Shown: positions 34,541 to 35,220 of the stretch, one piece after another
Position numbering within the stretch: the first letter of the stretch is position 1
Layout of the letters: the number at the start of each line of letters is the position of its first letter
Source: Myxococcota bacterium
GTDB taxonomy: Bacteria > Myxococcota_C > UBA6777
Direction: 5' to 3'
DNA: 64,000 nucleotides
NCBI GenBank assembly: GCA_023150835.1
Contig: JAKLKB010000017.1
Span: forward strand, 62,001 to 126,000
Translations under genes and position numbers: made by a program
The notes under the pieces: generated by a model
Seen by the model: only the letters and a program-made list of their open reading frames with translations
The model's database searches: none
What the model was told of the DNA's origin: nothing

Positions 34541-34745
34541 GTCTCTCTGCGCGCCAATCGGGTTTGCGGCGTCCTTCGGCCTCAAATCGGTAAAGGATGT
34601 CCCGCGCATCAACCCGCTGGCGCGTTTCCCGGGTTCGAATCCCGGCTTCTCCCTGTCAAGGAGATGTGGCCGAGTGGTCAAAGGCGAATGTCTGTAAAAC
34701 ATTTAACAATTCAAACCTCTCGGTCATCAAGATACGGGCGCGATG
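34541..34745 (+). ncRNA. structured RNA unit A around a permuted Tyr-like tRNA
   Basis: First of two related non-coding units. Upstream of the tRNA part are GGC...GCCTCAAATCGGT and the hairpin GATG-TCCCGCG-CATC (34596-34610). Downstream are TTAACAATTCAAAC (34703-34716) and the hairpin CATC-(13 nt)-GATG (34725-34745), whose loop contains ATACGG. Unit B has the same elements in the same order with different stem sequences. The upstream loop (CCCG) and downstream loop (CGGG) are complementary, so a kissing contact is possible. Boundaries are approximate. Confidence 0.6.
34611..34703 (+). tRNA. circularly permuted tRNA-Tyr-like sequence (anticodon GTA)
   Basis: The 3' half comes first: a variable-arm-like hairpin (AACCCG CTGG CGCGTT, one mismatch), T-arm CCGGG-TTCGAAT-CCCGG (34629-34645) and acceptor strand CTTCTCC (34646-34652). 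After only 7 nt (CTGTCAA) the 5' half follows: acceptor GGAGATG (34660-34666), D-arm GCC...GGC, and anticodon arm AATGT-CTGTAAA-ACATT with GTA at 34694-34696. The acceptor strands pair 6 of 7, with one T:T mismatch. CCA is not encoded. Read circularly this is a class II tRNA cut between anticodon stem and variable arm. No normal 3' half follows. A degenerate pseudogene is the alternative. Confidence 0.65.
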
Positions 34746-34984
34746 TTGTGCTGTTCTTGCTTTGATCTGTTGCTTTCATGCAGTCGTTTCAAAAAAGAAA
34801 AAAGGCGACCGCTCCGCCCATCGCCACAAAGCTTGTGTGTGGATCGCGCTCCTTCGGGGGCGTCGTGCTTTGTCAAGGAAGTCGACACATCGTTGTCTCT
34901 TCTTTGCCAGCCGATCTCACCCGCTTCTCCCGCGACTTTCTTGGTGACCGAGAACTTTCTTCTGAAAAATGAACCCACCCAAAG

Positions 34985-35220
34985 GACGAGGCGTCTAGGC
35001 GCACCGAGGCTGCAAAAGCCAGCGGCGCATACACGCCTAACCATCGGTTCTATGCGTCCCGCGTATCGGCTGCGACTTCGTTATCCGGGTTCGAGTCCCG
35101 GGAACTCCACCATCGCCGTCTGTGGACGGTTTTGGGGTTCTGGCGGAATGGAAGACGCGCTTGATTTGGGATCAGGTAACACATCAAACTTTTTAACACA
35201 GCCACATACGGCACGCTGTG
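34985..35220 (+). ncRNA. structured RNA unit B around a permuted Leu-like tRNA
   Basis: Second unit, about 450 bp after unit A. Upstream elements are a hairpin GGCG-CATACA-CGCC followed by TAACCATCGGT, and the hairpin ATGCG-TCCCG-CGTAT (35052-35066). Downstream are GTAACACATCAAAC (35176-35189) and CACAGC-(12 nt)-GCTGTG (35197-35220) with ATACGG in the loop. Loop words match unit A while both stems differ yet still pair, which is covariation and argues for a conserved folded RNA rather than chance similarity. Confidence 0.6.
35068..35176 (+). tRNA. circularly permuted tRNA-Leu-like sequence (anticodon loop reads TGG)
   Basis: The 3' half comes first: T-arm CCGGG-TTCGAGT-CCCGG (35085-35101), acceptor strand GAACTCC (35102-35108), discriminator A, encoded CCA (35110-35112). 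A 21-nt linker follows, holding the hairpin CCGTC-TGTG-GACGG and TTTT. Then the 5' half: acceptor GGGGTTC (35134-35140), which pairs with GAACTCC at all 7 positions (one G:T); D-arm GCG...CGC with the Leu-type GGCGGAAT...GACGC; and anticodon arm CTTGA-TTTGGGA-TCAGG. The loop gives TGG (35167-35169), a proline anticodon on a leucine-type body. The linker hairpin plus T run could also be a terminator. Confidence 0.65.

Follow-up and report, generated by a model that had tools for sequence, protein, structure and literature searches.

The window (the whole 64,000-nucleotide stretch of Myxococcota DNA analysed here) contains two units on its plus strand, A (34549-34716) and B (34999-35220), whose sequences read as circularly permuted tRNAs (Table 1). 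In each, a T arm comes first and is followed by the acceptor 3' strand, a short loop, the acceptor 5' strand, the D arm and an intact anticodon arm. Both T stems form 5/5 pairs, and a scan in permuted order pairs the acceptor strands at 6/7 positions in unit A, with a U6-U67 mismatch, and at 7/7 in unit B. The cloverleaf arms are complete in both units and the anticodon loops are canonical (CTGTAAA in A and TTTGGGA in B, each on a 5-bp stem); unit B also encodes ACCA (35109-35112) after its acceptor 3' strand, which unit A does not. The covariance model R1 scores units A and B at 49.6 and 38.4 bits, respectively. Neither was detected by ARAGORN or by Rfam tRNA searches, RF00005 reaching 26.1 bits over 34660-34723 of unit A, under its gathering threshold.

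The host genome (7.56 Mb in 239 contigs) also has conventional, separate tRNA genes for Tyr(GTA), for Pro(TGG) and for the remaining usual anticodons, and further permuted units are present in it and in its relatives. An array of 12 or more extra tRNAs lies on contig 34 of G000 (L041), and several of them have odd bodies (class I-sized with Leu anticodons). Unit A is kept in a sister species, with identities of 93% in the upstream flank, 96% in the tRNA, 99% in the downstream flank and 93% in the intervening DNA; the sister copy (G001 contig 167, L161) has the acceptor loop CTATCAA and the anticodon CTA instead of GTA. This CTA anticodon would read UAG. At unit B, the sister genome retains the upstream element, and the tRNA body is deleted. 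A search for plasmid relatives of the window region gave no match.

Table 1. Positions of the parts of units A and B in the window.
Feature	Position	Strand	Detail
Unit A 5' domain	34549..34625	+	outer stem, second stem CGGGUU/AACCCG and conserved element
Unit A outer stem strands	34549-34556 / 34618-34625	+	RNA fold of 34541-34760
Unit A element	34566..34605	+	GCGG 34566-34569; CCGC 34602-34605; unpaired TC
Unit A element stem		+	CGTCCTT 34570-34576 / AAGGATG 34593-34599; ATCGG in loop 34586-34590
Unit A tRNA 3' half	34629..34652	+	T arm 34629-34645; acceptor 3' strand CTTCTCC 34646-34652
Unit A loop between acceptor 3' and 5' strands	34653..34659	+	CTGTCAA, 7 nt; from sequence
Unit A tRNA 5' half	34660..34703	+	acceptor 5' strand GGAGATG 34660-34666; D arm 34667-34685
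Unit A anticodon arm	34687-34703	+	anticodon GTA 34694-34696, Tyr-like
Unit A downstream stretch common to B	34704..34716	+	TAACAATTCAAAC; A-B downstream similarity p = 0.057
Unit B 5' domain	34999..35076	+	predicted outer stem directly before T arm; fold of 34995-35221
Unit B element	35022..35062	+	GCGG 35022-35025; CCGC 35059-35062; unpaired TC
Unit B element stem		+	CGCATA 35026-35031 / TATGCG 35051-35056; ATCGG 35043-35047
Unit B tRNA 3' half	35085..35112	+	T arm 35085-35101; acceptor 3' strand GAACTCC 35102-35108
Unit B rest of 25-nt loop between acceptor strands	35113..35133	+	from sequence
Unit B tRNA 5' half	35134..35176	+	acceptor 5' strand GGGGTTC 35134-35140; Leu-like D arm from 35141
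Unit B anticodon arm	35160-35176	+	loop TTTGGGA; anticodon TGG 35167-35169
Unit B downstream stretch common to A	35177..35189	+	TAACACATCAAAC; A-B similarity
Unit B downstream hairpin	35197..35220	+	CACAGC/GCTGTG, ATACGG in loop; no supported counterpart in A

A covarying element upstream of the T arm

Both units carry a conserved upstream element of the form 5'-GNGG-(7 bp)-loop with ATCRG-(7 bp)-UC-CCNC, shared by permuted tRNAs at five independent loci: A and B themselves, an Asn-containing permuted locus of the same bacterial family (L037), whose sister copy carries the element as well, a Leu(TAA) permuted locus from another genus of that family (L166) and, in an unrelated genome, the permuted tRNA of L595. 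Their stems read CGTCCTT/AAGGATG, CGCATA/TATGCG, CACGCAG/CTGCGTG, TGCACAA/TTGTGTA and CTCGTAC/GTACGGG, and the outer pairing alternates between loci (GCGG/CCGC versus GTGG/CCAC). Across seven sequences from these five loci 98.7% of cells are paired, both sides have changed in 8/11 pairs, and the covariation is 0.77 against 0.28 in shuffles, a value that 0/500 of them reach. The structure was derived from unit A and the sequences were trimmed to match, so that slid controls are biased towards the element; the Asn, Leu and L595 loci are independent tests of it. All five window-type units have U33 and a purine at position 37 in the anticodon loop, with the anticodons GTA, TGG, GTT, TAA and TGC.

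In 4.6 Mb of loci, elements with GNGG and at least 6/7 pairs were found only at permuted tRNAs and at the unit B remnant of the sister genome. The motif ATCRG-N9-TCCC, which chance would place at a rate of 3.7e-4 per upstream region, precedes two more permuted tRNAs in the family and also L595, which emerged from an otherwise unspecific loose-motif scan of bacterial genome contigs (120 matches listed). In phage contigs, none of 61 matches to the sequence motif ahead of a T arm was a permuted tRNA, and 244 element-motif candidates included seven chance stems of at least six pairs, none of them beside a T arm.

The sequence confirms the two permuted tRNAs with a common upstream element and a downstream TAACA..ATCAAAC stretch that were reported in the preliminary description. 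Taken alone, the likeness of the A and B flanks is borderline (dinucleotide shuffles, p = 0.065 upstream and 0.057 downstream); it becomes decisive with the additional loci, which supply homologues with compensatory changes. The upstream hairpins proposed earlier are not the conserved ones. In the unit A fold the seven bases before TCCC pair with a strand upstream of ATCGG and CCNC pairs with GNGG, and it is that arrangement which covaries; the hairpins as first drawn (GATG/CATC in A, ATGCG/CGTAT in B) differ in register and are no more stable than shuffles (z = +0.10 and -0.11). A contact that had been suggested between the upstream and downstream loops (CCCG/CGGG) is unlikely, because CCC is already paired to GNGG. 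As for the downstream hairpins, that of A is unsupported (z = +1.2), and that of B is weakly supported (z = -1.72, with 11/200 shuffles equally stable). The fold of 34541-34760 around unit A is far more stable than expected (z = -4.58; 0/200 shuffles equally stable), and the whole-unit fold of B, taken alone, is no better than shuffles (z = -0.84).

The idea that a conserved RNA joins the tRNA ends is supported as regards the conserved RNA and unsupported as regards the joining. The element sits entirely 5' of the tRNA, and in the unit A fold the longer enclosing stem ends 3 nt before the T stem, so that the tRNA ends are not bridged by it. A simple outer stem across either unit was rejected as well, only chance-level helices being found (best stem in A, 7 bp).

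Strong covariation, unpaired conserved ATCRG and UC and a 3' strand of constant length are features of catalytic RNAs, and the host genome also holds interrupted linear tRNAs (see below). The 5' element might accordingly be a new ribozyme, or part of one, which would cut and join the halves in the manner of a natural permuted intron-exon. We consider such self-splicing distinctly improbable: the element is about 40 nt long and lies all upstream with no downstream partner, A and B have no exon junction consensus, and Rfam ribozyme and intron families gave no match at E <= 5 over 34400-35530 and none at E <= 3 in eleven related loci. Group I introns, group II introns and small ribozymes were rejected on these Rfam searches, in agreement with the earlier remark that no group I core was seen. 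Permuted group I and II introns (PIE, D1D4-CP) share the outside-in layout, which could circularise the central RNA, but A and B have no group I/II match and their element is far smaller.

Permuted tRNAs in phages and bacteria and their gene neighbours

Permuted tRNAs are frequent in phage contigs, which were scanned for a T arm, a gap of 4-8 nt and a D arm, with pairing not required. Acceptor pairing is bimodal, at 7/7 in 37 of 128 distinct cases, and unrelated neighbours peak at 4. Tandem ordinary tRNAs mimic this arrangement and were told apart by how well the acceptor strands pair, by the length of the loop and by overlap with linear calls; the 56 units left after removal of linear tRNAs have a flank helix score across the tRNA of 8.63, versus 7.12 for mismatched flanks (sd 1.20). 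In sibling permuted tRNAs with other flanks the outer stems bridge the tRNA, unlike in the window type, and across the class a 4-nt loop, in some cases UUCG or GCAA, often closes the acceptor strands. A covariance model of the permuted module gave clear cases in ~7 of ~380 random bacterial genomes, about 2%; its sequences were selected by acceptor pairing, and acceptor covariation in the model is therefore not independent evidence.

The bimodal pairing bears on whether mobile elements or rearrangement left the units behind as decayed tRNA copies. The lost body of B and the altered anticodon of A in the sister genome would fit decay, as would a host genome rich in extra tRNAs, but the element keeps intact stems and compensatory changes at five loci and acceptor pairing has its separate peak at 7/7, which makes this explanation very improbable.

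Several flank types adjoin genes of the Ro60 family. Units of type 2, of the form (stem)CCGG-UGCGCAG-P-RUUACUUC ... P'-GAUUUGAUC(stem), are Y-RNA-like and adjoin TROVE genes, often less than 700 bp away; their matches to named phages are partial only. TROVE genes occur at 15/41 permuted phage loci versus 5/187 controls. Permuted tRNAs with RUUACUUC and an outer stem lie near TROVE/Ro60 genes in phages (L281, L308, L311, L316, L329, L342) and in bacteria (L681, L682, L688), and such loci often hold several permuted tRNAs with different anticodons. Those beside phage TROVE/Ro60 genes are likely to be phage Y RNAs.

Units of type 1 (P-UUACAGCAA) adjoin DUF2828-DUF7788 proteins, as do linear tRNAs with inserts of 45-60 nt in the anticodon loop (GTGYTTTGTACAAARCAC-CACAGCAA). 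The predicted structure of DUF2828-DUF7788 resembles those of Ro60 and Rsr along the whole protein, with modest TM-scores (0.33-0.47), and the host genome encodes a protein of this predicted Ro60 fold on contig 201, beside interrupted tRNAs. Such tRNAs were seen on G000 contigs 201 (L713, 8022-10104) and 193 (L714) and on G003 contigs 41 and 81 (L715, L716); two of the clusters come directly after the DUF2828-DUF7788 gene. The insert motif GTGYTTTGTACAAARCAC-CACAGCAA is conserved across genera and takes the form CACCTCAGCAA in G003. Within the host's family, a Val(CAC) permuted unit on G004 contig 41 (L712, 8432-12436) has a long outer stem, and genes for a VWA protein and for two homologues of Ro60 flank it; a homologue profile including both flanking proteins matches 1YVP at 4e-133. 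A tandem of two permuted units, X-Y, adjoins DUF7873 in seven loci from bacteria and phages (G000 contig 64, L708; G001, L717; G003, L711; L686, L243, L422 and L689). DUF7873 itself does not resemble Ro60.

The cousins beside Ro60-family genes in phages and bacteria point to an unrecognised family of tRNA-like RNAs, and since such genes adjoin several sibling loci, a Y-RNA-like role competes with tRNA maturation. Among window-type units, only the Leu(TAA) unit of the sister genus has suggestive neighbours, an RNA ligase (PF09414) and a HEAT-repeat protein; no Ro60-like or other recognised partner gene was found near A, B, the Asn locus or L595. In the five genomes of the phylum, the Pfam TROVE search gave no match; the host genome nevertheless encodes the DUF2828-DUF7788 protein of predicted Ro60 fold on contig 201. 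RtcB genes are present in 4/5 family genomes, and the bulge-helix-bulge (BHB) splicing endonuclease PF01974 in 0/5, all four archaeal controls being positive.

Possible roles as Y-RNA-like mimics or tRNA precursors

The bacterial Y RNA YrlA (RF02553) is a tRNA mimic linked to Ro60-family proteins, with a closed acceptor hairpin between its T and D arms in permuted order; it lacks an anticodon arm, and the two RNA ends form the stem by which a Ro60-family protein holds it (PMC8394870). A and B resemble it in their permuted tRNA-like module, with closed acceptor, T and D arms, and differ in a full anticodon arm, a self-contained 5' hairpin domain and the absence of a nearby Ro60 gene. RF02553 matches neither unit at E <= 5; on sibling modules the YrlA model reaches at most 41 bits against a gathering threshold of 69, a level at which ordinary neighbouring tRNAs score similarly. 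The best YrlA-type end-to-end stem in unit A, 7 bp across the tRNA, is at chance level.

We tentatively favour the reading that the products of A and B are Y-RNA-like RNAs, tRNA-shaped but permuted, with the 5' element at the variable-arm position. All four tRNA arms would fold from the unprocessed transcript, with a closed hairpin for the acceptor stem, and the two ends of the RNA would fall at the variable-arm site of an ordinary tRNA, where the 5' element may stack beside the T stem and offer a specific platform to what is most probably a protein. The tRNA module, with its complete anticodon loop, could be a bait or a handle for enzymes that act on tRNA, such as modification enzymes, nucleases and RNA-repair ligases. 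Such RNAs would be relatives of YrlA in kind, not by descent. We favour this reading because the acceptor strands pair in permuted order and the covarying element lies all 5'; because ordinary Tyr(GTA), Pro(TGG) and other tRNA genes are already present; because the sister genome has the anticodon of A changed and the tRNA body of B deleted; because acceptor strands across the class often end in 4-nt loops; and because of the YrlA-model matches on siblings and their linkage to Ro60-family genes. It is weakened by the lack of a Ro60-like gene near A or B and of Pfam TROVE matches in the five genomes, by the sub-gathering YrlA scores that ordinary tRNAs equal, by the ACCA of unit B, by the RNA ligase gene beside the sister-genus unit, and by the canonical anticodon loop of 5/5 window-type units, an arm that YrlA does not have.

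These last points lead to the main rival of the mimic reading, real tRNA production, which we regard as possible. The permuted precursors would become working tRNAs after RNase P and RNase Z, with CCA added, had opened the acceptor loop; the break in the variable region would either stay nicked, giving a two-piece tRNA like the permuted tmRNA, or be sealed by RtcB or an Rnl2-type ligase after cleavage by the flanking element. It is the main rival because U33 and purine 37 accompany different anticodons in 5/5 units, unit B encodes ACCA and RtcB genes occur in 4/5 genomes. The intact anticodon arms with valid loops suggest, as far as sequence can, selection for decoding, and the PF09414 ligase gene suggests sealing. 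Precedents exist in the permuted tmRNA (PMC10085705) and in algal and archaeal permuted tRNAs (PMC3978253). Against production stand a complete set of ordinary host tRNAs, an element that leaves the tRNA ends unbridged, 4-nt acceptor loops (as in the Asn unit) that give RNase P little room, the acceptor mismatch and missing ACCA of unit A, and the absence of PF01974 from all five genomes.

In red algae and Thermofilum, permuted tRNA genes likewise place the 3' half first, with a short intervening loop (PMC3978253, PMC3218864). They need a BHB motif and the splicing endonuclease, whereas A and B have a new covarying element and a bacterial host in which PF01974 was not found. The permuted two-piece tmRNA (RF04321) resembles unit B in its T arm and acceptor loop (25.8 bits against a gathering threshold of 47); A and B differ from it: they possess a full anticodon arm and lack the tag-encoding and pseudoknot parts.

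A broader proposal, which we think unlikely, is that bacterial and phage permuted and interrupted tRNAs belong to a single system, where Ro60-family proteins, together with RtcB/Rnl2 ligases, would make tRNAs or circular tRNAs from rearranged precursors, Y RNAs would be degenerate descendants of permuted pre-tRNAs, and the window-type element would serve the reaction.

Permuted tRNA genes are documented for algae and archaea, and in the open-licence literature searched we found no report of them in bacteria or phages. These conclusions draw on DNA sequence, with five independent loci of the window type and five genomes of the host phylum for comparison. If the window units are processed, they would represent a bacterial route of tRNA maturation without the archaeal endonuclease. 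If they are left unprocessed, Y-RNA-like tRNA mimics would be far more varied than YrlA, some with complete anticodon arms, and would pair with several partner families (TROVE, DUF2828-DUF7788, DUF7873). Either way, the units suggest an origin of Y RNAs that can be tested and would explain why RNA-repair ligases accompany them.

Elsewhere in the window, a tandem of three near-identical tRNA-Met(CAT) genes lies at 26465-26868, and a cobalamin riboswitch (90 bits, 35529-35717) precedes an open reading frame resembling a TonB-dependent receptor (35803-38193).
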